Shown here in pieces: positions 3,508 to 22,850 of a DNA stretch of 64,000 bases. The notes beneath the pieces are model-generated. The model was not told the DNA's origin. It made no database searches and saw nothing but the letters and a program-made list of their open reading frames with translations. This DNA comes from Dysidea avara. Its lineage: Eukaryota; Porifera; Demospongiae; Dictyoceratida; Dysideidae. The stretch lies in the NCBI RefSeq assembly GCF_963678975.1, contig NC_089274.1, positions 17,067,633 through 17,131,632 on the forward strand, read 5' to 3'. Each line of letters starts with the position of its first letter. The first letter of the stretch is position 1. A program made the position numbers and the translations under genes.

Positions 3508-3517
3508 GACGCGCGCC

Positions 3518-3844
3518 ATGGCGCCCTGTTGTTCCTGTAATGGTAAAAACGCTGTTTGTAAGAGATGTGTCTGTGTTCGGGCTGGCAGGCCTTGTACCTC
3601 ATGTTTGCCAATGAAGATTCATCGTTGTGGGAACACATTGGCCAGTCGTTCAGTGAATTCGGTGGTCTCTAGCGAGGTGGGCTCTATTAGGAATTCTGCG
3701 TTAGGGGATCATGGACTTGATATGACTGCAAAGAGCCCTTCTACTGATACTGTACTGCAGCATTCGGACACTACTAGGTTTGACTCTGTTGTGAATGATG
3801 TACATGTAGCTAGCAAAATGGTTATTAACAGGAACGCAGCATAA
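3518..3844 (+). CDS. Small ORF with a CXC/tesmin-like Cys-rich N-terminus
   Basis: The 108-codon ORF begins MAPCCSCNGKNAVCKRC, followed by CVCVRAGRPCTSC. The spacing CxCx6CxxCxCx6CxxC resembles CXC (tesmin/TSO1-type) zinc-binding modules. The rest is Ser/Thr-rich without a recognised domain. It may be the first exon of a longer gene, since a coding-looking exon follows at 4482-4572, or a fragment of a transposon-encoded protein. It is flanked by a SINE just upstream and a TIR element downstream. The function is unknown. Confidence 0.45.
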   Translation: MAPCCSCNGKNAVCKRCVCVRAGRPCTSCLPMKIHRCGNTLASRSVNSVVSSEVGSIRNSALGDHGLDMTAKSPSTDTVLQHSDTTRFDSVVNDVHVASKMVINRNAA

Positions 3845-4031
3845 GGAATGCAGCCTTATAGGAATGCAGCTTTGCCAACTACGGCTTCCTAACCTCAAAT
3901 TGGATTATACTGACTATGAATTTTGCTCCTTGAGCAGGTCACAAAACAGTCAGTGTTACATCTGGTGAACAGAAGTTAAACAGTAAGTTAACAAACGTTG
4001 AGTGCCGGCATGTTTATGGGTATACTCTGAC

Positions 4032-4343
4032 CAAGAGTACATAATAATAAAAATAAGAGAGAGTGTCCTATTGGAATATATAGACTCCCAAAGGCACTGA
4101 GTCAAGTGATGATGGAACAAGCTGTATTCACCCAATGTGCTAAATGCTTTGATCTACAACAACTCAAGAGATAATTCAGCAGAAGTCAATGATGTGCAGT
4201 CCCATTGATCAACAAGCCTTTCACTTGACTGCAAAGTGTTAAAATAAAACAAGAATATCTCAAAGTTTACTGATAACTTGACTCAGTGCATTTGTAAGTA
4301 CCTCATAGAGAGTTGGACACTCTCTTATTTTTATGTACTCTTG
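4032..4343. mobile_element. CAAGAG-type MITE with 7-bp target duplication
   Basis: The termini CAAGAGTAC and GTACTCTTG begin inverted repeats of roughly 27 bp that include AATAAGAGAGAGTGTCC. The element is flanked on both sides by CTCTGAC (4025-4031 and 4344-4350), a perfect 7-bp duplication. Two other elements in the window share CAAGAG termini and a 7-bp duplication (30947-30987 and 53576-53997). Confidence 0.85.
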
Positions 4344-4481
4344 CTCTGACTCCTGGAGGTTCTGGCAGAGTAGCTATTTTCAACCCAAGAATAATCATTT
4401 TAATGAATCATTTTTATGTTACGTAGCTATGCAGTAAAAGAGAAAATAATTAGCTAATTATAGTACTGAATTAAATTGCAG

Positions 4482-4572
4482 GCGGAGAAAGCCGGATTTC
4501 AGTAGTGAGCTAGCAGAGGCACTAGCAGATTTGGAGCAGTGTGACATCTATATTCAACTCATGATTCTGTGA
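4482..4572 (+). other. Exon-like segment, unassigned
   Basis: An acceptor (TTGCAG) precedes an open frame reading RRKPDFSSELAEALADLEQC and a few more residues up to a TGA at 4570-4572. The composition looks coding (amphipathic, acidic). It could be the last exon of the Cys-rich ORF at 3518 or of a decayed gene. No family was recognised. Confidence 0.3.
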
Positions 4573-5021
4573 CTTACATTCACATGTTGCAATTTAATAC
4601 CTAAGTACTAAAAACATTTGCAGTAGCTATGTTATGTTTCAAATAATAATTTTAAAAAAATGCATGCAGTCTGCATTATACATATTAAGTTTTAAGGTCA
4701 TGCATGCTTCACACAGTGACCTCTCATGTTAGCTACTTATGGATCTGTGTATGCTGTGAAAACATAGCTATATGCATGCCCTTAATGATGACTTGGACAA
4801 CCACTAATAACAGTGTGAACATTTATACAAAGACAATAAGCAGCTGTTGTTACCTATGGTATGAAAGGGTGTGTGTAATCAATAGTCTATTGCCACTATC
4901 CATTAGGATGTTGCAGCAAGGCTTCATCATGATCTCTCACTGAGGTCACCTGCTTGGTATAAAAGCAATTTACAGTTGTTTGCTACAGTTTCATACCTGT
5001 TTACAGTTGCTTGTTTCTACA

Positions 5022-8000
5022 ATGAATAAGTCTGCTGATCGTATTGGATTGTTTGGATTACCTAATCTTGGTAACACTTGCTTCTGCAATGCAACTTTAC
5101 AGTCTATGTGGTGAATCAAAGCATTGCACAAGATTTTATTGGAGCACTGTGATGGTCAAGAGTGTAAAATAGGTAAGGAGTTATAGATACCAAATAAAAT
5201 CCATGAATGCATATGTCTTTAACAGAAAACTGTATTCTTTGTTGCACTAAACAAGTGATGCTACAAAATACAGGAAGTTATGATGCATTGTGTGATTTGA
5301 AGCATAGATTGAAAGGTAGCTATGCAGCACACATACTTTGTTAACCAGCAAAGTTCACTTTAATATAATCAGAGTAGCTATACCATATTGGAACTGAACA
5401 CTGTCATTACAATTGCATAAATATCTATACAATTAAGTAGCTAGATAATTGTATCTACAGCAAAACAATACAAGTCCGGAAAGAGGAGTGTTACTGTATC
5501 ACTATGTCTTGTGAGCCTAACAAGAAACTTATCAACAGAAATTTATCATAAGCTAGGCCACACATATTGTCAACCTCTTCATCTATGTTTATGTACAATA
5601 TTCTGTGAAAAGGGGTCGTATAGCCTTTCCAATTGCATGTGTGGCCTGGAAAATCCATAACTTGACTTGTGAGTATGGTACCAGCCTGAAATTTGGTCAC
5701 TTCACACTCCTAACATACACATGTAGCACTATTCCTGAATATACTTTTAAAACAATAGGTTAAACACATGATGAGTTATGACTCGTCATGATCGGAAACT
5801 TGGAAAGGCTATAAGACCTCTTTTCGCAGATCCGATAACAGTTATACATTTCTTACTGGAGTTGCATATGTTTTTCTGTTTTCAAATGTGACAAGATTTT
5901 ACAAAACTGATCCAAATTACACATCAGACAAAGTCAATCTAACAATAGCTATGCAGCAAAATCAATCGTACTGAAAATGAATTCTGTCATATCAGGTCAC
6001 CTTTTGACCAAAATTTACTGACCTTAGTAAGGAGGTGGTTACATTTAACAGATCATTTTGTACACAAGTGAGGCAGACATACATTAGTCTTATTATACAG
6101 TGATCTAATAAGACTTGTTTCACTGTATATAGTTGAATAGTAAAAGTATTGTGCAATCATACAGTAAAACACCTACAGTCGCTACATTAACATTATTGTT
6201 ATTATTATTTAGAAGGCCTGTACACCAACTCATTATACAAAATAATTATACTGTCTGTCCAATGTGTATCCAGCGGTTTGAGGCAAGGCCTTGAAGTTGT
6301 AATGGAAGGAATCAAATGAAAGTTGGTGTATGACTTTATCTTGTGATGTAGTCATACAGTGTCAATTTGTGTCAAGTTTGAAGAAATTTTAAAAGAGTGG
6401 GTTAAATTTTGATTTCTCTGATAATTCAACATGAATTTGTCGAGTTAATATCCCAATATATCCAGAAGTTCAGCAGGTGATTTTGAGTAGTTCATTATAA
6501 ATAATTCCATGTACTGTTATGTCAAATGTAGTGTACCACATTGAAAAGTTGCAAAAAGAGCCTGGTCACCTGGTCAATTTTGTAGGACCAGCAACATATA
6601 GTTAGTTTTGCACTGCCTAAGGTTTAGCTAAAAGAGTCTTATTCTGCTGGGTTAACAATTATTTGAATCATTTATATGTGCAGCACTAAATAAAATATAG
6701 TACTAATCATCCAAGTTATCTGTAGTGTTAATGTTAGTACAACATCTTATCTTACACCTGGAAGCAAGAGTGCATAATAATTATACTCTTACTGGAAGCC
6801 ATTGTGGAATTTCTAAGTATTTGTGTAATTACACTAATAGTCTTGCACTTAGAATGTTATAAGGAGGTTAAGTTCTGCAATGTTCTTGAAGACAAACAAT
6901 AGCAATTGTTGCTATGTAAAAAATTGAAATAAAGCTATTGAAAAGCTTTGCTATGCATGGTGTCAAAAAATAATATTTCACACCTAGTAACAGTTACTTA
7001 ACAATGGTTACCAGGTAAAGATTATGTTACTAAGTAACATTGATCTGTTACTGTGATAACACTGGTTGACAAGATGGACATGCAAAACCAAAAATAAATT
7101 AGCCAATCAATGTTTATGACAAAACAAATAGGATTCTGTTGGCTAGTTTGCTGGAGTGTATCAAAAACATCATGGAGCTACTATATGAGAATTTGTACAG
7201 GAAATTATGACACTGTTGCTTTGTTATAAATTATACCAGGCATTTAAATAACTCCAGCATAATCTGCACCTCCAAATAGCCATGGAATCAGGTAATATGA
7301 TTATGTATGCATTTCACTACTACACCAGTCTATGATGAATTTACTGCTGATTCAAGAGATATAGTGTGCTAGTATTATGTACTTGTAGTGACTGATCTCA
7401 TGAGCATTGCTTGCATAATATTGTCTGTTAAGGTGTCATTATGAACAGAGTAGACGGAATGCAGGAGGATGCTCATGAATTTTTAGTTGGTATGTTAGAA
7501 CTGATAGAATCATCACAATCCTCAAGGTACTGCACCTTCAAACATAGTATCTTATGCATTATTTTACTTATAGGCAGCAGAAGAAGTTTATTGCGGAGAC
7601 CTTGCATGTCACTACAGCAAAAACAGGTATACTAGCTGTATATAAGCTGAATGTATGGAGCACATGACTGGCTGTATGCATGTACTGTATAGAATTTGGT
7701 ATACATATTTTATAGTTACTTACTGGTCAACTATATACGTACTGATCCATAGCCTTTTACTAAAATGTTTCATATATGGTGTACATAGCTTCAACTTATA
7801 TAATTATGAGCTATATGCGTCGATCAACTGTGATTCCAAATTTCCAACATTTGATTTCTGATATATGTACTACACAGATTAATTCATTGAACTTTCAGCT
7901 TACTCCTATTACTCCTATTTACCTCTAACAAGCACACATATGTTATTGATTAGCCTATCTTTTCAAGTAACTTGGTTATTTCATGGTATAAATTGCTATT

Positions 8001-9513
8001 TTATGCTATCGCTATAGTCTTTTTTACTGGCCATATGCAAATAGGATCACAATAATGATAGTGATTATTGTGCTCTTGTAGTGTTGCTACAACTTGGTTG
8101 TTTGTTGTGGCATGTACCCTACATGATTTAATAATCATGACTATTTAACTATGTACAACAATTGGCAGTAGCTCATGACTGTTTAAAGTGAGCTATTGCA
8201 TCATATGTGTAGTTGACTAGTATCAAATGCTCCATGTGAATCCCACTGTGTTTTATTGAAATGGTGCATTCAGCTGCTGTTCTCTTGCACCATGCAGAGC
8301 CTGTATTATATTATACATTACTAATTTTAAAAGCAAGTTATACCTTGTGAAATTATTGCAGATGCAGTATGACTTTATCAATAATTCATATATATGGATA
8401 TTGTAGTGACCTGTCTGAAGTGTTCATCATGTCACACACAGTATGAAACTCAGAATCACCTTCAGCTAGTTGCAAAGGTACTAATTGTTTAATCAGCTGC
8501 TAACTAAAATACATATATATTACATATTACGTTTGATGCAATTCATGGTAATAGAAATATAATGTTCCTGATGTTATGTTGTATAAGGTGAACCTATAAA
8601 CCTAGCTTGAATCAACACATTGAAATCATTGCAAAACTTTGCAATAAACAGTATACACACAATTCATAATATAGGGGAGAAACAAATGCAAAACAACGGT
8701 AATACAAACTGCAAAGCACAAATAAGACCTACTATATATGATACGTATATGCATACATTCATTCTGATCAACATTATGGGGCAGACGTAGATCTAGAATT
8801 TCATGACATGAATAATCAAGAACTTTCCACTGTAGGCTAAAGATGTAGAAGATGCCATCAGACTCACAATGCAGGATGAAGTGACAACAAAGGACAATAT
8901 GCTACATTGCAATAAGTTGGTGTTGATTTATTTATAACTTAATAATTGCGGTGTTATCATTGGACAGATGCAACACTCGCAGCCCCTGTAAGCTTCAATA
9001 CAACTTTTCCACATTACCACAAGTATTGATTCTTAATCTTAAAAGGTATATATTGTATATACTGGTTGTACATTTGGGTTCTATGCATGTGTATATACTG
9101 TTCTTCCAGGTTTACAATAAGTGGCCATCAGCCAAAAAAGGAGCAACAGATCACTCCAGTCAAACTTAACCTAACTCTACTAGAAAAGGTTTGAATAAGA
9201 ACATGTATGACAGAATTGTATAAAATTAATATGATGTAGCTAAAAGTCACTGTTAAACATATAGGATGGATGCAAACATTATCAGCTACGAGCAATCATT
9301 ACCCACACAGGGAGTACAATGCAGAGTGGTCATTATATGGCAATTGTTAGGTACAATAGTGACTGGTTTAGAATTGATGACAATCAGGTAACAAGAGTTG
9401 GTACAATCACCAACATGCATGACTATAATAAGTAGGTACTTAAAGTCAGTGAGCATACTACAAAGACATCTCAAGCATATCTTCTATTTTATCAGGCAAC
9501 TGGTATCACAGAG
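5022..9513 (+). CDS. Module 1: ubiquitin-specific protease (C19) domain
   Basis: Exons 1-10 give the USP signature blocks in order. The Cys box GLPNLGNTCFCNATLQ lies at residues 12-27, with Cys20 the predicted nucleophile. QEDAHEFLVGMLELIE follows in exon 3. Two CxxC pairs, TCLKCSSC and CNKCNTRSPC, look like the USP zinc ribbon. LPQVLILNLKRFTISG precedes the His box SGHYMAIVRYNSDWFRIDDN in exon 9, which supplies His and Asp/Asn. The domain is compact compared with host USPs. Four codons after the Cys box, at codon 31, an in-frame TGA interrupts the frame although coding continues cleanly on both sides. Known USPs remove ubiquitin from proteins; activity here is untested and needs the TGA to be an error or suppressed. 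Confidence 0.85.
5605..5830. repeat. Inverted-repeat element in intron 2 of the giant gene
   Basis: GGGTCGTATAGCCTTTCCA (about 5613) recurs inverted as TGGAAAGGCTATAAGACCTC (about 5801). The pair flanks about 150 bases with no ORF. It is MITE-like; target duplications were not resolved. The rest of the 2.1-kb intron (5316-7432) shows no other feature I can support. Confidence 0.55.
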
Positions 9514-9532
9514 GTAAAATAATTAACATATA

Positions 9533-10328
9533 ATGGATGAATTTCATAATAACAAAAGTTACCCCTAGCAACCATGAATTGCATGTTTGTAGGGGTGAAT
9601 ATCTATAAAGTAATGTCTTCACATTTTAACAGGATAATAGTGTAGATTATGAAGTGTAATTGTCCATGAGAGGGGACAACAACAGTTTCCCCTTTTGGGG
9701 CAATCATATATGTGAGGGGGTATAGGAAAAGGGAAGTCAGTAATTATTGTTAGGTAAGTATAGTAATTGGGAAATCACACTTGTGTTTAAAGTCTTTATA
9801 ACTATGTGAAACAATTGAGTATTGAGTTGAAATTTGAAATATGAATAGGTGGTGAGTCAGTTGCAAAATTTTTATATAGGGGTGAATGTCTAAGGTAAAG
9901 CATCCAGGTTATAGCTATAAGTATTGCGTGTATATATAGGTCATGAGATATGACATTTTAAAATTTGTAATTTTCCCATATTAAATTGTTTATGAGAAGG
10001 GGCATCAGTTGCCCGTTCTGGGCAATCACATTGGTAATGTATGAGTAAACCACAAATTTAAAATGTCACATATCATGATCTACCTCTGTCATAATAAAAC
10101 TTAGAGAGATTAGTTTTGACATTCAATAATTGAAGCGATGTGACGTTGTTTTTTATTGATGAGATGTTTTAAACTTTTTTATATATATGTGAGGGGGCAT
10201 AGGAAAAGGGACCTATAGTGGTTAAACATGGAATTTGAGCTATGCTAATCAAAAAATTCTACAAAATTCAGGTTGTTAGGGGCAACAGTTAAAAATTCCT
10301 TATTATCAAAAATTCATCTATTCTTTTA
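9533..10328. repeat. Long inverted-repeat element in intron 10 of the giant gene
   Basis: The left arm (GGATGAATTTCATAATAAC, then GTTACCCCTAGCAACC) is mirrored by the right arm near 10265-10325 (GGTTGTTAGGGGCAACAG, then AAAAATTCATCTATTC). Interior GGGGCAATCA words repeat in both orientations. This suggests a roughly 0.8-kb non-autonomous DNA element inserted in the intron. It leaves the flanking exons 9496-9513 and 10355-10568 intact. Confidence 0.5.
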
Positions 10329-10354
10329 GTATAGCACATGCATGTTATATGTAG

Positions 10355-12417
10355 GTCAGTCCAATTGATTTGACAATCAAAGATGACAGCATCTCTGACA
10401 ACCAAAATCATCAAACATCAACACTGCATTTAATTTTAAAGGGGCAGACAGACGTGGCTAGCAAACTGGTACAGCAAGCAGAAGTGTACCATTACAGCAC
10501 AAGAAAAAGCACTGATGCGGATGCAATTTACCCAGAATGGCGGTCTTTTGAAACATTATCAACTGAAGGTTAATTGTAGTTTAGCATTATTGTGATGGAA
10601 CTTTTGTGATTAATGCAGAATTAATAAAAACTGCCATTGGTTGTGATTCTACAACAGTCAAAGCTATATACAAAGATGCTAAAACTGACCTTACCACTGA
10701 TGACTTGGGAAGATTGTCATATCCATTTGAAACAGAGAAAACCCTTTTGTATTTGAATGACAAGGTATTGGGGAATGCTTGCACAACTATTATCACTAAC
10801 TTTCATGTATTTTTGCATTGAGCAGGTGATAAATGCTTACACATACTTATTGGCAGCTACTGCTAACAAGAAGGTACAGAAGTCAAAAATTTAATTCACC
10901 TTACGTATCATTTTAATAGGGTATTACTATCATGCCAATGACGTCTTTCTTCTTCACCCTACTTAAACAGAAAGGAGTAAAATATGCTTTGGACAAATGG
11001 AAAACAAAGGTATAGCAACATACACATATTACACTATCTATATACATTGGCAAAAGTGTAACAAAAGATGAATAACTTATTTAAGCTGAAAGCATTGAAG
11101 TCAAAGAATTTGTACAGCTATCACATACTGATTAAAAATTACCTTAACAATTAATTGCAGCAAATGCATAGTGCAAGCTATGGCACAAATGCTTTAGCGA
11201 TATATGTATATGGACATGTCCGTATTTAACAGCTTTAAGGCATGCTGTAGCTGTTTGACATATTACTGTATCCTTTGATAAATTAATAATTTTATAGGTA
11301 GGTTAGCATTGAAATGCAAACTAGGTGTACACTACCTATGAAGTCATACATGCATAAGTCATTTTGCATTGGTAGATCAACTTATTCTCACAGTATCAAT
11401 ATTGGATTGTTCCAGTACATCAAGGAATACACTGGTCAATGATGGTAATGTAATGTAAACATTTAAGTGTGACATGCATTATCATATTAAAGGTGATAGA
11501 CTTCAAATCACAGATTATACATTACTCTGATTCATTGAGTAATTTGACAGCTATCGAATACACAAGTCTGATCACGTAAGTTTCACTGTGAAAATTGTAG
11601 CTACACTTACTATATAATAAATTATGTATAATTTATAAATAGGCAGTATATGACATTACGTTTTCGAAACGAAACTGGTCAAAACATGATGTGGGATGGA
11701 TGGTGTTTAAAGATTCATTGGGTAAATCTCCATTAACATATTTTGTGAATGAATATTACACTGCACAGGATATATCTAAACAAACAAATGGATATGACTG
11801 TGGCTTATATGCATTAAAGGTAACTATATGGATATGTGTGCAGATATGATAATTAATAATTATAAGAAAACATCAAACCTCATTTGCAATCGGTACTATG
11901 AAAAACACTGTTTCAGAACATAGCACGTATCTGTGCCATAAAATCTAACTAACAAATCAAGGATGTCATATACATTTTTGCGGTTTTGTCTTTGCTCTCG
12001 TATAGAATTAATGAAGGTAACATTGATTTGTGCTATTGTAATGCTTTTAAATGCTTCCTATATGTACCATGGTATTCATGGAACACTGCATGTTGAATGT
12101 GTTACTTATAATAATTATGTCATTGATGCTATAGGTTCTTTAAATAGTTGCTATATGCAATATCTGCTGTTGCACATCTCCACATTATGAGACCAAAACC
12201 TCAGTTTAGAAAGTAGTCAATTAATACAGTATGTATAAACAGCACCTTTTTACAGATGGCTGAGTATACCCTCAATAGATGGAAATGTGATTATACACAG
12301 GTTGCCAATTATGCTGCATATAATGCATATTATTATGTATAATGATTTGTACATACAAAAGGATATCACCGTGTTTAGGAGACAAGTTCTAAAGAAGTTG
12401 TTAGACTTTGTTATAGT
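10355..12417 (+). CDS. Module 2: linker plus Ulp1-like (C48) protease domain
   Basis: Exons 11-20. After a linker of about 120 residues, a segment with FFFTLLKQKGVKYALDKWK leads into IVPVHQGIHWSMMVIDF, then HYSDSLSN, then KQTNGYDCGLYALK. Compared with Ulp1/SENP proteases, the His of IHW, the Asp 17 residues later (SDS), the Gln six residues before Cys and the Cys of DCG are all present with the family spacing. The sequence therefore predicts an intact SUMO- or NEDD8-type isopeptidase fold. Ulp1-like proteases are known in some plant MULEs and other large DNA transposons, which favours a mobile origin. A TAA at 12419-12421 would end the protein if the GTAAGC donor at 12418 is skipped. Confidence 0.85.
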
Positions 12418-12830
12418 GTAAGCTAAGGGGCAGTACTTAATATAGTCACAGTATCAGTGTGGTATTGTGTTCTATTGCTAATTATATAAATTTCAACCTT
12501 TATCAAATTTGAAATGATTTCGAATCATTGAATTAAACTACAGTATGACATATGGTTTGGATCATTTTGGTGAAACATAAACATGTATGCATAATCTTTT
12601 AGAGCAGAAACATATATCTGTATTATCAGAATATTAGGGTAATAATTTACTATATATCTGGATTTTCTCAGGATATTTGGCTCAGGCTATCTGGATAGTA
12701 AAATCGCTATCTAGAACGTAATATATGTACTCAAAGCAAACTTGTATTCTTGCATATGTGAATAAATGTGTTTGCTAACATACACTTATCTTGGTGTCAC
12801 ATAGAAAATTAATTGTTTATATTCCCCCAG

Positions 12831-13432
12831 GGATTGCCCAGTCAAAGAAGCAAAAGAGAGAGTACATATTGGCTGTAAAGATCAGAAAAATCTACATACG
12901 GCAAATGAAACACAACATATGGCAAACAATGATGGCAGCTTTCAATTCGCTGATGGAAATTCCACTGCTTCAAAATATGCAATAAATGTAGATAACACGA
13001 ATGAATCTCCTCAATCACATGTAGTTATAGATTGTCCACATGACCTGTCAATGGAAACTAACAGTGATGCACATACTGAAACAGATGAATACCATGTCAG
13101 TACCCTCTGCAGTGATGACGCAGACGATAATATTCAAACACCAGCTCATGCAACATCGAATGATGCTGAGCACATGATTAAACATACAAGTAAGCATAAT
13201 ATTCGCAACAATTTGGTTTGCACAATTTGTAATAGGCAATACAAACACAGACAGAGTTTGCATAGACATATCACACGTGACCATCCTGAAACACAACCTT
13301 CTGGCCAAATTAAATGCCAGGAAGAGTCATGTAGCTTTATGTGCAGATATTTACATCAACTACGTGAACATTTAACAACCATACATAATATTCAATTTGA
13401 AAAAGAAACGAAGGTGTTTAATTCTTACTCAG
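12831..13432 (+). CDS. Module 3: acidic linker and two C2H2-like zinc fingers
   Basis: One exon starting after CCCCCAG. The open frame DCPVKEAKERVHIGCKDQ continues through an acidic, Ser/Thr/Asp-rich stretch. A classic finger CTICNRQYKHRQSLHRHI (Cys-x2-Cys, His-x4-His) follows, and then a second, looser finger CQEESCSFMCRYLHQLREHL (Cys-x4-Cys, His-x4-His). The in-frame Met at 12919 could be a start if this half is a separate gene. The exon ends at CTCAG/GTTAGT in phase 1 and continues at 13725. The likely role is DNA binding at element ends; that is inference. Confidence 0.7.
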
Positions 13433-13724
13433 GTTAGTTTGTGTTACCTAAACCGTGAAATTGTATGCGTATTGTAGTAACAATTAATTGGTCTCAAGTA
13501 ATATTATATAATTTTAACTTGAATTATTCAACATGGTAAAAAGATGATAGCTATTCTATTTATTGTTTCATTTTTTAAAATTCTCATTTCAGTTTCAGTT
13601 CCACTAAAGTAAATATAATATGCTATCCTGTGATAAATTACAAATCCTAATTTGATTGTTTCACGTGTTGTATCTGTAAACTATTAAGCATGAAACATCT
13701 GAATTACGTTTTATGTGCATATAG

Positions 13725-15797
13725 ACTTTTGCAGATGGAAAGATGAATTTGAAGAATGCAGTGGGATAAACTATATAAAATCAACTGGCAGTAAAGCGAT
13801 AAACAATGAAAGTGTTGAGTACTATTATTGTAACAGAACCGGATTCTTTAATACAGTTAGTAGTGGAAAGAGGTCATTAAAATCTCAAGGCTCTTGTAAA
13901 CTGAATTCCCACTGCACAGCTAGCTTAACTGTGAGGAAAACAGTTGAAGGAACCGTTGAGGTGGAAATCTGTAGTACACACTATAAGCACACAGTATCCC
14001 TTGGACATCTGCGTATTCCTAAATCAAAACGCATTGAAATAGCTAAAAAAACTATCAGACGGGGTTACAATTGATCGAATATTGGATGATGTGAGAGACA
14101 ATGTTTGTGTTGATGAAAAACGGTCCCACATCATGACAAAAAGGGATATCCTCAATATTGAAAGGGCTTTTTCTTTAAGATCTGTTGAAAGACATTCGGA
14201 TGATGCTACAAGTGTAGCAATGCTGGTGGAAGAAATGAAACAGAGTGACAAAGAGTCTCCTGTGTTGTTTTACAAGCAACAGGGAGTAGTTCTAACAGCT
14301 TATAATTATCTAAACAAAAACGACTTTGTGATGGTATTACAAACACCATACCAAGCACACATAATGAAGGAGTGTGGCAATAACATAGTGTGCATTGATT
14401 CCACCTTCAAAACAACAGGATATGATTTTACATTAATCACTGTCATGGTAATTGATGAATTTGGTGAAGGCTATCCAACTGGATGGTGCTTGACCACTAG
14501 GGAAGATCACCACGTGGTACATCTATTCTTTGAAACTCTCAAACAGAGGATTGGAATGATTAATACACGTTGGATAATGACAGATGACGCAGACCAGATC
14601 TATAATGCATGGAAATCCACATTTTCAGATAGTCCACACAAGTTACTGTGTACTTGGCATGTAGACAGAGCATGGAGGGGGGCTATTGCTAGCAAAATTG
14701 CTAATGCAGAGAGCTACAATGTCAGGTATATCATTCATTGCACACATTAGCACAGGAAACAGACATAAACACATTCAACACAATGTTGTTAAACTTTGAA
14801 CAGCAACTACAAGAGCATCCAGACACGGGTATATTTGCGGAATACTTTATAACCTATTACAGTGCAAAGAAGGAGCAGTGGGCCTTGTGCTATAGAAGAA
14901 AAGCAGGCATAAATACAAACATGCATGTTGAAAGTTTTCATCGATTGCTCAAGTATGTATATATGAAGGGAAGAATTAAGAGTGGACAAATGCATCCATT
15001 TGTTACTTAAGATAGCTAGGGATAAAGGATTTGAACGCCTCATCAAGCTTGAAAAGGGAAAAGTATCTCATAGGATCAGTTGCATTCGCCAGAGACATAA
15101 ATCCAGTGTGGAATTATCAACAGATTTAATACAGGACAATGGACTTGATTTGTGGAGAGTTGTCTCATCCAAAAACCCATTACTGTACTATGATGTTCAT
15201 AAGGAAGACGCAAGATGCTCACCAAATTGCCCTTTACGGTGTACTGAATGTGATATATGTATCCACCAATATAGCTGTACATGTCCTGATTCATTGGTAC
15301 GTTTAACAATATGCAAGCACATTCACTTGCTAATAAGAAAACTTTATCAGAATAATATGTATAATGTACACAATACCTCTCATACTATCACAAGTGATGC
15401 ACAACTAAAGCAGAATGAAACCACAAAAATATTACAAGAAATGACTTCTCTGTCACATCAGACTTCATCATCAGCATCACATGTTCATAAGAATATTGCC
15501 ACTTTACAGTCACTTGCATCACATTGCAATGATACTTACAAGACCGTTAATAACTTTGTTTGCAGAGCTATTAATATTATTCATATGAAATCTCCAACTA
15601 TTATGCATTACACCAATAATACTCCAGTAACAGCAAAAATTATCCCACAAAATCCATTTCATTCACAACGCAAACGTCCCAGGAAGTCTACTGTTAAACT
15701 AGCTAAACCCAGTTCAATTAAGAAAATGTTAATACAACAGTCTTTATTTGTCAATAGTGAGATGACATCAGAAGAAAAATGCAAGCAGGATGAGAAT
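13725..15797 (+). pseudogene. Module 4: FLYWCH/FAR1-like, MULE transposase and SWIM finger
   Basis: The order is: an N-terminal Cys/His module (WKDEFEECSGINYI, then HCTASLTV and STHYKHT) typical of FLYWCH/FAR1-type DNA-binding domains; a MULE transposase core with Asp in VCIDSTFKTT (codon 14397), Asp in MTDDADQI (14583), CTWHVDRAW, and Glu in HVESFHRLLK (14930), a plausible DDE triad; and a SWIM finger YSCTCPDSLVRLTICKHIH. Three breaks interrupt it: one extra A in a seven-A run at about 14043-14049, two extra bases in AGAG near 14712, and a shift near 14980. Similarity resumes at once in the new frame each time. The remaining C-terminus is low-complexity and ends at a donor after 15797. Confidence 0.8.
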
Positions 15798-15837
15798 GTA
15801 ATATAATTTTTTGTAAATAGCATTATTTATATTTCAG

Positions 15838-16731
15838 AAGGGGTCAGTATCACATATCAATGACGTTATTGATATCAATGATGTGACATGCGATTATACA
15901 AATGATATCTATGATCAACGAAGCCTGTTAATTCCTTCTAAACCATGCAATATTATAGTATATGCATGGATGCAACCAGTACTGACAACTCAGCAAACTC
16001 ACTGTTGTATACATATGTAACCATGATTATTTGATAATTTGCCTCCTATATTATAGTTAGCCCACTTGTGAACTGTTACTTGTACTCTTCAGTGAAGACA
16101 AACTACTATAGATGCATGTATGTACATAACACAACCCATGTGTGTATGTATACATAGTGTTCAATAATATGCATACAATAATGGTGGTTGTATAGCTTTG
16201 TGGATTTGTATACACATAAATGTAAGGGTGGGTATAATATGTATACAACACAAATAGTCAACCGTGTGTGTCTTACAGATGTCCTAGAGTTGATCTTAAA
16301 TAAAAAGCCAACTAAAGATATCAATGAAATTCAGCTTCAAGATCTGAAGACTGATATACCAGACTATATCATTGACCATTGTGCTGGATTAGTATTGTTG
16401 AAACCTTTGTGTTCAGTCGAAGCTTGGCAACATCTGGAAATGATAGGTAACTATCAGCCTGCTTATCACTTCTTGTGTTGACTGTTATATGCACTCATGT
16501 AGTTCATAGGAAAAGGATAGAGTGGTTTTGTAATGCTTGCACTTTTGTCTGTGCAAATGTTGACATGATTTGCTGTGAAAAATGTAATCTGTGGTATCAC
16601 TGGTAAGGATAATATGAATTTATTTGTAATATCATATACATTCAAATTACATTAGGAATTGTATTGGGATTACCACTGCACCTGATGATGAATGGTATTG
16701 CAGTACCTGCTCAAATGACAGTACAATATAG
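15838..16731 (+). CDS. Module 5: C-terminal exons with a PHD finger
   Basis: Four exons: 15838-16006, 16279-16446, 16503-16602 and 16656-16731. The first two carry DVIDINDVTCDY and VLELILNKKPTKDINEIQ. The last two encode a PHD finger: WFCNACTFVCANVD, MICCEKCNLWYHWNC and DDEWYCSTC, then TAG at 16729-16731. The Cys4-His-Cys3 ligands are all visible. PHD fingers read histone H3 tails in host proteins; in a transposase such a tail could bias target choice, which is inference. Phases 1, 1 and 2 close cleanly if the acceptors at 16278 and 16502 are used. An alternative is a separate small PHD gene. Confidence 0.7.
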
Positions 16732-18888
16732 GGTCACTAACTGTGTACTAAAATTGTACATTATACTTTGTATAATTATTCCCTTTCAATTAGCTGATCG
16801 CACCCAATATCAGATGTGTACATACAGTGGCTGTTGTGCGTAATTTGGTAAAAAATTCACAATTTAATACCAGTTCCCCTGTTAAACAAATGAATGTTAT
16901 AATGTTCATTGTATCACTCTAGCTGTACACTGAAAATAATCCAAGGTTTTATAATCGAGACTAGTTAATTTCGCTAATTTAGTGTGCAAACCAAAGACTC
17001 CTATGTACCGTCATATTGCTTTGTATGTGTAAAAGCCAAGGCAATCAATGACCTGAAATATGCACTACAATTATGATTCAGTGAAGGGAATGATTAAAGG
17101 GATTTCAGGGGAGTGTGGAAGCATAGTTACCTAGTTGAAACATAATTGTGGCAGGATAAAATCTGGAAGCAATTTGAGATAAGTGACTGAGACCTGAAAC
17201 TAGGAAATAGCAAACAAATTTACAGTGACGTATACAAGCCAATTCTTTAGGTCAAACTACTGTTTTATAAGATTTTAAGGCAATGATTTTATATCAGTAG
17301 TGGACTGGGAAAATTAATGACCATAACTATAACTTGCAATTTATTGGACCACAAGTGGAAAGTTTTGAAAATGGCAATCTCAAGACTGGATCTTGAGGTA
17401 CTTTTAGTCAAATCCCTGTAGCTAAAAATACACAGCACATGTATGTAATTTTTGACTTTAACACAGCTTGTTATTTTAGTCTGACTTTTACAACTAGCCA
17501 AATCACTATTTACAACTAGCCAAAAGTCATTTACAACTAGCTTTTTAGCCACAACTATAGCCTCTTTTTTAGCCCCTGAAATAGCTTGAATAGTGCCATG
17601 CTTTCTCAGTAACAATTTCTTTAGCAATAGTCTTTCAGCCTTTTACAATTTTCTCCCCACAAGCTATGAGTCCATGATTGACTGACCACTGCTATGAAAT
17701 AATTTAACTTTTAAAAACTGCCGAATGTATACCATAATTATGACAGTTCTTGCATTTAGAATGAACTGTGTACATGTCTACTACTACAATGCCTTAAAGC
17801 ATGGCACAGCTTAGTAAGCATTTATGAGCTCATTTCAGTGTGTAACCTGCAAGTGAACCTGTCAATTAAATGCCTCAATATTTTCATGCTTCCACCATAT
17901 TTAGCCATTTCCACAACAGCCAGCCTATATATGACTACCTTTAGGGCTTAGACACTTGCTTTTTCTTTGTGAGGTTGATCACAAGTTAACATACATAAGG
18001 GGAAATTTTCAACTATCATACTTGATTGCTTTATCAGATTTAGAGAAAAATAATTTAAAATATTGAGTAGACTTATTAGGCCATTATTAATTTTTGTGAT
18101 ATTCTGTTGTTTTTTTTTTCATCAGAAAATCAGCATGCGGGTCAATATGGCTATATATAACTATAGGCTTATTTTCATACCTCAACTTTCTGTATCACTA
18201 GTAGTTAGCTATTTAGATACAGAACTGATCTATATCACTGGTAGTTATCTGTTTAGATACATACAGAATTGATCTTATAGCAGCCTATGCGTAGGTACAT
18301 CTGAAGTAGATCATCAGATGTAGCTACATTATATAGTTGTCCTTTGTGATTGCAGAATTTTACTAACATATAAATATTAGAAGGTTCAATGCACAATCTT
18401 TAAGGAGTTTGTGACTACAGTGAACAAGGTAGCTGGTATATAAGGGCAGTAATCTTAAGAACTGAACTGCACATGCTCAATCTTTTTGATATCACTGGTT
18501 AGCTACATCTTTAATAATGGGGTATATGTGGCAAAGAAAATACAAGTGGATGCTGATGAGAACAGAAAATCACTAAGGCCTTACAAAATAGTTGAGTATT
18601 TGAATGCAAAATATCCACTACAGTAAATTAGAGTACAGCTCTATAGTGACAAAGAAATTACAGATATTTAAGTGAAGCTATAGATCTGACCTTTATACCT
18701 GGTAGATTTATAAATCCTACTCTTTATTCACACCAGGTATTGCTATTGAATAGTCTTGATCATCTAAGAGAGAATCATTCCTTGTCCATTATACCCTAAT
18801 GGCAAAACATTTGTCTCTGTACCTGCACATTTTATTCTATAATATAATTATATGCATGTCACTACTTTGTTCATTGTGCCTTAATGTG
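16732..18888. other. Gene-free stretch with one repeat
   Basis: No supported coding exon. A repeat at about 17330-17640 (reverse orientation), rich in CTAGTTGTAAA words and including GGGATTTGACTAAA, matches 52540-52760. The remainder is AT-rich single-copy-looking sequence with TAGCTA-type words. No terminal inverted repeat of the giant gene's presumed transposon was recognised here. Confidence 0.5.
17330..17640 (-). repeat. Dispersed repeat family B, copy 1
   Basis: Read on the minus strand it contains GACTTTTGGCTAGTTGTAAA, GTCAAAAATTACATACATGT and CTCAAGATCCAGTCTT. The same blocks occur in the same order at 52540-52760 on the plus strand. The 112-codon ORF inside it is not open in the other copy. 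Confidence 0.7.
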
Positions 18889-18896
18889 GTGCACTG

Positions 18897-20617
<1,721 letters not shown>

Positions 20618-20628
20618 GTGCACTGACC

Positions 20629-21019
20629 ATAGACCGTATTCCAAATGACGTCATGAAATAAAATGGCTGTGGCTATTTGGGGTATTCTAACAACTTCGAG
20701 TGAGAGTTCCAATATGGCTTAATAAGATTTAAAACACTATTCAATCCTGGAAGAAGATATTGACAACAGGTATAGTTATAAGGGTATAAAACCTATTCTC
20801 TAATGCCGGGTTAGAATTTTCAGCTGGTTTTCAAAGTTTAGAAGAAATACTATTATTTATTTGCTGTATTAACCAAACCTGCAAGTTTCGTATCAATATC
20901 TTGTCTGTTAACCTTTATATCAAGCTTAGAAATCTCAATCACCATTGGTGATAATACTCGAAACTATAAGAGTCCCCCAAATAGAAAATTCGTGTGATGT
21001 CATTTGGAATACGATCTAT
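20629..21019. mobile_element. TIR element (ATAGACCGTATTCC type)
   Basis: ATAGACCGTATTCCAAATGA at the left is mirrored by TCATTTGGAATACGATCTAT at the right, with one mismatch near the tip. No ORF. It lies four bases beyond the target duplication of the preceding hAT-like element. A target duplication of its own was not resolved. Confidence 0.75.
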
Positions 21020-21284
21020 TAGTATTGCATCATTTGCAGCTTTTCTGTGTATATACATTTGCAGTGTCAAAGCACACATTTATACTTAAAATGTGGTTTC
21101 AACAAATTTCACTGTCTTCTTCCAGAAACATATGCATTTTTTTGAAGTATGTGAAACTAGCAATATTTCAATGAAATCACAAAAATGGCTGTACCTCATT
21201 TTTTTTAAAATGGGCTACTGACTATGAATTGTTGGGAGTTTTCGTCTGCCACAAAACTCAAAAGTTATTTATTTTTAATTTTTT

Positions 21285-21490
21285 TTTAATTATAAGGCTT
21301 TACAGCACAAGTGCTGAAGGTCTGCAGGACACCTGGTTGTACAGCCTGTTTAAAGTTGTTACATAAAGTGTGTTTGAAAAGGTGTAGAAAGGAGAAAAAA
21401 TCCATGACCGGACCTAGGCGGCCTCAAACCTACAGCCATCCAATTAATGCTCAAACACTTACAGGAGTCTGCCAGGTGGTCAGGATGTTT
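21285..21490 (-). repeat. SINE, diverged copy
   Basis: On the minus strand it has a degenerate B box (GGTTTGAGGC), then GTCCGGTCATGGATTTTTTC, and ends with ACCTTCAGCACTTGTGCTGT, similar to the 3' core of the SINE at 3258. The tail is AT-rich (21255-21290 on the plus strand). Confidence 0.5.
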
Positions 21491-21947
21491 TCTCCTTGTC
21501 AATTTCAAGTATATATATATATATATATATATATATCCATAGGAACTCTAAAGAGTGACTTATTATCTCAAAGTAGCTATTATAAAACTAGATATGAAAC
21601 CATAAATTATACAAATCGTAAGATAATAGTGGTTGTTATCATGGCAACCTGTGTACAAATAAGTACAGATAATGGGAATAATCATGTATAACTTGCATCA
21701 GAAAGCCATTAAGTGCTTACTAAGAGCTGAAAATTGCATTGCAATAGCATAATAGTACAAAAAGTTATGAGTGATGAAAGTTAAAAAAAAAAGCAAAAAT
21801 CATGTGCCCACATGCCCTATTCTCACAGGCCCAGTCACATAATCTATTGATGTTTGGATGCTACATACAGCAGTACAGTTTCATTCTGTGCTTTTGTTCC
21901 ACCTGTAGAACATATGTGAACTTATACGTGCAGTGATCTGAGCAACA

Positions 21948-22239: not shown

Positions 22240-22850
22240 ATGATTAGCTGATATTAAAATTCACATAATGGCCGATACTGATAACTGTTTATGTTCACCA
22301 CTTTATTTTTTGTCTTAATTTTATGAAAACAGTATCACCATCGGCAAATTTATCTGCTAATACTTACCGATACCGATATTGGCTGATAAACTAGTTTCTG
22401 ATTATTTTCTGATTAATAGGTCTGCATCAAATATGCCAGCATAATAAAAGCATAATAATAGGCTGGAGTGTCATTCCAGCAATTAGGTGGGTATTTCAAA
22501 TTAATCCATGAATATAGATCAATACTCCCTAATAGAGCAGTCAGTGGAAACTACAATTGAGCACTCAAATGATAATCGATACTCTCTAATAGAACAGTCA
22601 CTTTGTAGTGAAGTACTCTAATAGAGCAGTCACTTTGTAGTGAAGTACTCTAATAGAACAGTCATTTTGTAGTGAAGTACTCTAATTGAGCATTCACCGA
22701 TTGAAATTCTTCCAAGAAAATTGTAAAGAAATATTGACTTTGGAGCATAATGGGAACACTGAAGAGCATAACAGGTGAAAATTTTGGGAAATTTCTGAAA
22801 GCATTATTTTGGGCATATTTGACTGATAAATTGGTACATCTCTAATCGTG
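22240..22850. repeat. hAT-like remnant with a tandem ACTCTAATAGAGCAGTCA cluster
   Basis: GGCCGATACTGATAAC and TACCGATACCGATATTGG on the left, and GATAAATTGGTACATCTCTA on the right, resemble the self-similar ends of hAT MITEs. Between them (about 22515-22690) a unit of roughly 35 bases, TTTGTAGTGAAGTACTC plus TAATAGAGCAGTCA, repeats about four times with drift. The boundaries are approximate. Confidence 0.45.

Follow-up and report, generated by a model that had tools for sequence, protein, structure and literature searches.

We analysed a 64,000-nucleotide stretch of the Dysidea avara genome (contig NC_089274.1, 17067633-17131632; hereafter the window) and searched the assembly for relatives of a gene at window positions 5022-16731. 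The gene probably belongs to a decayed, large Mutator-like transposon (Mutator-like element, MULE). This transposition gene carries a ubiquitin-specific protease (USP, peptidase family C19), an Ulp1 protease (C48), two C2H2 fingers, a FAR1/FLYWCH-like module, a MULE DDE transposase core and a SWIM motif; a PHD finger follows in two of the three subfamilies. The domain order proposed by a first-pass annotation of the window was borne out. These modules occur in this order, are linked in mobile copies, and retain the protease active sites in the copies of other subfamilies that were read. The host is a eukaryote and, judged from the relatives of the element, probably an animal.

We re-read window positions 4000-27000 and built a spliced model by eye, listing splice sites and phases for every piece. 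The model runs from an ATG at 5022 to a stop at 16731 in 26 coding pieces, with two more doubtful pieces between 11917 and 12016 (Table 1). It agrees in number with the 26 exons of the first-pass annotation, which may not be the same pieces, and the frame is not open in the window. In Pfam searches of the spliced window sequence, UCH matched at 5.2e-42 (profile positions 2-254 of 254), Peptidase_C48 at 1.3e-15, PHD at 2.3e-7 and MULE, which passed its cut-off and marks the DDE core, at 6.7e-13. The C2H2 (E 0.024) and FAR1 (E 0.0014) matches fell under the Pfam cut-offs; both stretches match the diverged copies described below. SWIM reached only E 1.9 in Pfam; its CxCx(n)CxH motif is visible and is kept in relatives. 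What we take to be the USP motifs run in the order Cys box, QEDAHEF, Cys pairs, LKRF, SGHY and YLLFY, so that the Cys and His boxes and the zinc-binding Cys pairs are all present, in a frame that has a stop in the window and lacks the Cys in copy C1. The presumed Ulp1 His, Asp, Gln and Cys boxes are also found in the window, and the same residues are invariant in a three-sequence alignment (A2).

The assembly searched comprises 551 Mb in 108 contigs. With the transposase piece as query it gave 86 matches, a number that includes the window and counts several copies more than once. We label the other copies by contig (C1, C2, C3b, C4, C7, C11, C15 and C15b). C1, C11, C4 and C15 match window DNA over kilobases, with main blocks at 87-99% identity and one 137-base block at 83%. 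Insertions aside, C1 is collinear with the window across 3844-21520. C11 follows the window over 3813-7886, with gaps and insertions, and 8 bases on resumes at 13776; C4 follows it over 7151-8959, with gaps, and 5 bases on resumes at 13326. These internal deletions show that the USP half is physically tied to the zinc-finger/MULE half. C15 covers 11817-14464, including the joint between the halves. Two diverged subfamilies, B (C2 and C3b, closely alike) and C (C7 and C15b, closely alike), have transposases 45-51% identical to that of the window, and translated window exons match both in the same order. The linkage of the two halves, which the first-pass annotation had proposed, is therefore found in other genomic copies: in collinear C1, in C11 and C4 through their deletions, and in subfamilies B and C through their shared order.

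We recovered the proteases of the diverged copies with a purpose-written spliced alignment. The USP scored 296 in C2 and 282 in C7, and Ulp1 scored 213 in C2, 237 in C7 and 185 in C3b. Controls, for which we used shuffled sequence, the opposite strand and unrelated parts of the window, scored 48-107. Frame breaks occur in the C7 readings. The USPs of C3b and C15b border or fall beyond the DNA read and are known from UCH matches only. Pfam recognized UCH (5e-34 in C2, 1.6e-29 in C7) and C48 (2.8e-14 and 1.4e-14, respectively) in these readings. Active sites are kept: the USP Cys and His boxes in C2 and C7, and the Ulp1 His, Asp, Gln and Cys residues in C2, C7 and C3b. Several introns of the diverged copies share position and phase with the window. 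The PHD finger is present in subfamily B, with scores of 163 (C2) and 165 (C3b) against at most 59 for shuffles. The USPs of the three subfamilies are 27-29% identical to one another. A small tree with long branches unites the window USP with those of C7 and C2, at support values of 0.88 and 0.74.

We assessed whether USP and Ulp1 genes accompany MULEs across the genome, counting neighbours within 20 kb among 150 MULE, 149 Ulp1 and 150 of 152 UCH matches listed; all three lists were cut at a maximum length, which makes the counts lower bounds. The null consisted of 500 circular shifts, for which the lengths of six main contigs and of the small ones were approximated. Among the 150 MULE matches listed, a UCH match lies upstream on the same strand in 12 cases, downstream in none and on the opposite strand in one, and the shifts gave a mean of 0.23 and a maximum of 3 for the same-strand upstream arrangement. 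Four of the 12 listed belong to the window lineage (window, C3b, C7 and C15b); the other eight lie outside the matches of the window transposase, and some may be copies of one family. One of the eight, another MULE family, lies at C14:6430701-6432640 (L052). In the 1,940 bases read there, the ZSWIM3_N/FAR1 finger (2.3e-21 and 6e-8) comes within a few hundred bases of the USP end, downstream of a Pro-rich stretch, with no Ulp1 seen between USP and finger. For Ulp1, the same 150 MULE matches listed gave four upstream, nine downstream (seven of them at 3.5-4.3 kb) and one on the opposite strand. Ulp1 is hard to detect because its exons are split; the window's own Ulp1 is missing among the matches listed. 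The MULEs with a same-strand Ulp1 3.5-4.3 kb downstream, apparently a different arrangement, are at C11:3119013, C11:19993516, C2:32998751, C6:11314190, C8:34916020, C9:12527463 and C9:16577210. USP matches are densely arrayed on one strand at about 24-26.5 Mb of C6, where they probably mark host genes clustered in tandem.

The unit is dispersed, as a mobile Mutator-like element would be: the window, C1 and C11, the three copies whose flanks were read, all begin at the same left end (3815) in unrelated surroundings. From there the mobile unit runs right to at least 21520-21688, that is, over at least 17.7 kb; the match to the window ends near 21070 in C11, 21520 in C1 and 21688 in C4. With its first 216 bases as query we found 20 places, of which eight are long (at least 185 bases, window among them), and seven of these eight start at base 1. 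The right end was not located: for the left 17 bases, no right-hand inverted partner was found at up to three mismatches. One candidate terminal inverted repeat in C4 and two in C15, each with three mismatches to the left 17 bases, were rejected as their positions fit no right end. The best candidate from the left 33 bases has 12 mismatches and lies near 21029, at the same homologous place in the window, C4 and C11, not far from the point where C11 stops matching; we judged it a chance match.

Other features were seen around these ends and within the unit. The first 33 element bases recur at eight places within 0.8-3.8 Mb of contig C2, at 97-100% identity, and the two places read (L053 and L054) resemble a coding repeat that is present in multiple copies, and so gave no help with the element's ends. 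Next to the left end of the element, on its outer side, 3509-3844 holds a Cys-rich, CXC-like open frame with no Pfam match. An insertion with 25-base inverted ends occupies 20629-21019 and is apparently absent from C11, and a 32-base unit is repeated in tandem at 22584-22697. In C11 and C4 (L012 and L011), 48 bases from within the transposase gene (15352-15399) have expanded into a tandem array with a spacing of about 55 bases.

Several observations weigh against our interpretation. The window copy is a dead pseudogene. An in-frame stop interrupts its first USP exon; near 10585, eight bases differ from C1 (the sole copy aligned there) and the model has no phase-fitting acceptor; and indels break the frame of the transposase exon at three places, near 14050, 14708 and 14978. 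The single intact open frame that the first-pass annotation had read in the window is thus refuted by one stop, one broken junction and three indels. The indel near 14050 is absent from C1, C11 and C15, with C4 differing there in another way; the other two are absent from C1, C11 and C4. C1 has a transposase frame open across 632 residues, and in its USP the catalytic Cys is changed and a stop is present. In the transposase part, C2 has one frame break and no stop, C7 three and two, C3b four and none, and C15b six and three. Every copy read through the coding part is damaged somewhere and none is fully intact. Since both the window and C1 are damaged, what we describe holds for the family and does not amount to an intact gene in the window. 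Between these two copies the USP shows nine nonsynonymous changes against one synonymous. The pN/pS ratios of nonsynonymous to synonymous differences (0.59 for window and C1, 0.43 for C11, 0.41 for C15 and 0.94 for C4) are weak values from broken copies, which we did not use as support.

Further points on the same side concern the modules and their surroundings. The PHD finger, expected from the first-pass annotation as part of the protein, holds for the window and subfamily B and was not detected in subfamily C (scores of 67 in C7 and 52 in C15b, shuffles up to 66). The count of four upstream Ulp1 cases among the MULE matches listed, with a null mean of 0.41, is not clearly outstanding on its own because the shift maximum is 5. 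Neither a terminal inverted repeat match nor a target duplication, which the first-pass annotation had suggested seeking at 8-11 bp around full copies, was found, with the right end not located. When 5.8 billion proteins were searched with the protease half, candidates being limited to about 910-2894 residues and to shared words, no USP-MULE fusion appeared among 85 matches; the best were USP36/USP42 near 30% identity, and the Pfam domains listed for the matches were USP-type, some with others, with no MULE or C48.

Whether the two halves form one protein turns on positions 12418..12830, where a phase-2 GT-AG intron removes a stop at 12419-12421. C1 and C15 have the same donor GTAAG and acceptor CAG, and the reading of this joint in the first-pass annotation, with the right phase and the stop skipped, was upheld. 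The phase, the kept sites and the immediate stop if the intron is unspliced favour one protein, and the USP, Ulp1, finger and MULE modules are likely, judged from the sequence, to be spliced into a single polypeptide. An unlikely but serious alternative is that the transposon holds two genes acting in trans, much as plant MULE accessory genes do, a USP-Ulp1 gene ending at 12421, where an unspliced frame stops, and a zinc-finger/MULE gene starting near 12917, where a Met could begin it. The stretch from the Ulp1 Cys box to the C2H2 exon is poorly conserved, as two genes would allow. Eight relatives in the protein database are MULE proteins of 695-803 residues with no protease among their listed Pfam domains (two are named, both from beetles; some may be partial), and in the available part of PMC13317346 the Ulp1 of the plant KIU elements sits in one of three genes. 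The consistent phase and kept splice sites speak for a single gene, as does L052 of another family, where the USP end precedes the finger by no more than a few hundred bases. Annotated sea-star proteins also join a long N-terminal region to a C2H2-FAR1-MULE-SWIM part (P0002-P0004, from Acanthaster, Patiria and Asterias; 1162-1324 residues). Identity with the Patiria protein is 84% and 64% for the other two, and the two compared with the composite are 31-32% identical to it; their genes look derived from a related MULE. The N-terminal region aligns with Ulp1 at the His, Asp, Gln and Cys-Gly positions. The hhalign probability is 4%, Acanthaster has a Ser at the Cys position, the two pieces tested, of three, gave no Pfam match up to E 10, and no relevant solved structure was found. 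We consider its Ulp1 identity suggestive only.

Two further explanations dispense with a role for the proteases in transposition or with the unit itself. The proteases could be Pack-MULE-style fragments of captured host genes: MULEs tend to acquire host gene fragments (PMC6446971, as far as that text was available), and the USP is similar to USP36/USP42 of hosts, with neither the window nor C1 having it intact. We regard this as very improbable, given near-complete catalytic domains with active sites, USPs only 27-29% identical across three subfamilies, fixed order and strand, and the one-sided genome-wide association. Slightly less probable still is a set of adjacent unrelated genes or nested insertions whose copies were spread by segmental duplication. 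The right ends do differ (C11 near 21070, C1 near 21520, C4 near 21688), so part of the spread could be segmental. Against it stand the left end shared by three copies with unrelated flanks, the derivatives that carry internal deletions, and the order that diverged subfamilies keep elsewhere in the genome.

Table 1. Features of the mobile unit and its gene, in window positions.
Feature	Position	Strand	Basis
Left end of mobile unit, 33 bases	3815..3847	+	start common to window, C1 and C11; flanks different
TATA-like sequence (putative), upstream of first ATG	4958..4964	+	read directly
Exon 1, USP Cys box (GNTCF), in-frame stop in window copy	5022..5172	+	model, Pfam
Exon 2, USP	5226..5315	+	model
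Exon 3, USP QEDAHEF box	7433..7526	+	model, Pfam
Exon 4, USP	7574..7626	+	model
Exon 5, USP zinc-binding CxxC	8407..8477	+	model
Exon 6, USP	8836..8915	+	model; end phase agrees with C2 and C7
Exon 7, USP second Cys pair, LPxxLxLxLKRF start	8968..9045	+	model, spliced alignment
Exon 8, USP	9110..9188	+	model
Exon 9, USP His box (SGHY)	9265..9387	+	model, Pfam
Exon 10, USP end (YLLFY)	9436..9513	+	model
Exon 11, USP-Ulp1 linker	10355..10568	+	model
Exon 12, no phase-fitting acceptor in window copy (8-base difference from C1)	10585..10764	+	model, C1 comparison
Exon 13, Ulp1	10826..10873	+	model, spliced alignment
Exon 14, Ulp1	10920..11009	+	model, spliced alignment
Exon 15, Ulp1 His box (HW)	11394..11444	+	model, diverged copies
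Exon 16, Ulp1 Asp box (SDSL)	11493..11575	+	model, spliced alignment
Exon 17, Ulp1	11643..11721	+	model, spliced alignment
Exon 18, Ulp1 Gln/Cys box (KQTNGYDCG)	11769..11819	+	model, diverged copies, spliced alignment
Short linker exon	12256..12300	+	model
Exon before critical joint, donor at 12418	12362..12417	+	model, copies, spliced alignment
Exon after joint, two C2H2 fingers	12831..13432	+	model, Pfam, diverged copies
Long exon of the transposase, with FAR1/FLYWCH-like module, MULE DDE core and SWIM motif; frame broken by three indels in window	13725..15797	+	model, Pfam, copies, subfamily comparison
Linker exon	15838..15957	+	model
Linker exon	16279..16445	+	model, subfamily comparison
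PHD finger, first half	16510..16602	+	Pfam, subfamily comparison
PHD finger, second half and stop	16656..16731	+	Pfam, subfamily comparison

We compared the element with published systems, each known to us from a partially available text. Ulp1 has been reported in Mutators of hydra, lancelet and plants (PMC2836005). The hydra and lancelet elements are, like ours, animal Mutator-type transposons encoding Ulp1 (C48); compared by description only, the window differs in having a USP before Ulp1 and a PHD finger after it, whereas the available text mentions no USP. The plant VANDAL/KIU (Kaonashi) elements are non-TIR MULEs (lacking terminal inverted repeats) with Ulp1 (PMC13317346). Their Ulp1 lies in one of three separate genes, with no USP mentioned in the part available; splice phase in the window points to a probable single gene. 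The first-pass annotation was right in treating Ulp1 modules in plant MULEs as known (PMC2836005, PMC13317346). A Trichomonas transposase_11 protein combines Peptidase C19 with a DNA transposase, as the window does; its transposase domain is different, and Ulp1, fingers and PHD are not mentioned in the available text (PMC2836005). Helentrons likewise have two cysteine deubiquitinase-type domains (VTD and OTU) in one transposon protein, but they are rolling-circle RepHel elements and their protease families differ from those of the window (PMC9741609, in part). Ginger1 joins a DDE transposase to Ulp1, and to PHD in one listed family (PMC2836005, in part); its core is Gypsy-integrase-like and its proteases are C-terminal, whereas Pfam finds a MULE core and no integrase core in the transposase piece of the window. 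Rehavkus shares with the window a PHD finger in a MULE-related transposase; it has terminal inverted repeats and a minisatellite before the 3' repeat, with proteases not mentioned in the available text (PMC6446971). With the 3' end of our element not located, the tandem repeats to set beside that minisatellite are the 32-base repeat at 22584-22697 and the 48-base array inside the gene in C11 and C4. The main text of that MULE survey, as available, does not contain the words peptidase, protease or ubiquitin. Our literature search found no paper pairing a MULE transposase with a ubiquitin carboxyl-terminal hydrolase and, among the papers listed, judged from titles and abstract openings, none on a MULE with a USP or with USP and Ulp1 together. 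The first-pass annotation had called this an undescribed system. The USP/Ulp1/MULE combination appears to be new; since Ulp1 Mutators and a C19-bearing transposase are in print (PMC2836005, in part), the claim reduces to a new combination in a known kind of element, a further point against the stronger wording.

In the mechanism we propose, the fingers would bind element DNA, the DDE core would cut and join DNA, and the PHD finger would favour particular chromatin. USPs remove ubiquitin, and Ulp1/SENPs remove SUMO. By analogy with these family roles, the work of the two proteases is likely ubiquitin and SUMO removal. They may strip both tags from the transposase, or from chromatin or repair proteins at the site, which would stabilise the transposase and counter silencing. 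Ubiquitin- and SUMO-cleaving domains recur in unrelated transposons, and possible reasons have been discussed (PMC2836005, PMC9741609). In the available portions of these papers, one proposes a possible role of Ulp1 and OTU in activating repair factors while transposition takes place (PMC2836005), and the other discusses protecting proteins from degradation, including those required for transposition (PMC9741609). Because both proteases are linked to the transposase in a fixed order in three diverged subfamilies, their role is testable and the two activities can be switched off separately.

The protease combination suggests that these elements are themselves equipped to counter the protein tagging by which the cell exerts control. 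We put forward, tentatively and with more doubt than confidence, that some animal MULEs are built around an upstream USP, found before the transposase in several diverged MULE families of this genome and in one of them with a ZSWIM3-type finger, that one old lineage added a deSUMOylase, and that a single polypeptide strips SUMO and ubiquitin at insertion or donor sites. If this is true, a transposon would itself encode the means to oppose SUMO-directed silencing and SUMO-targeted ubiquitin ligases. The recurrent layout of a USP upstream of a MULE also offers a simple criterion by which genomes can be mined for further elements of this type.

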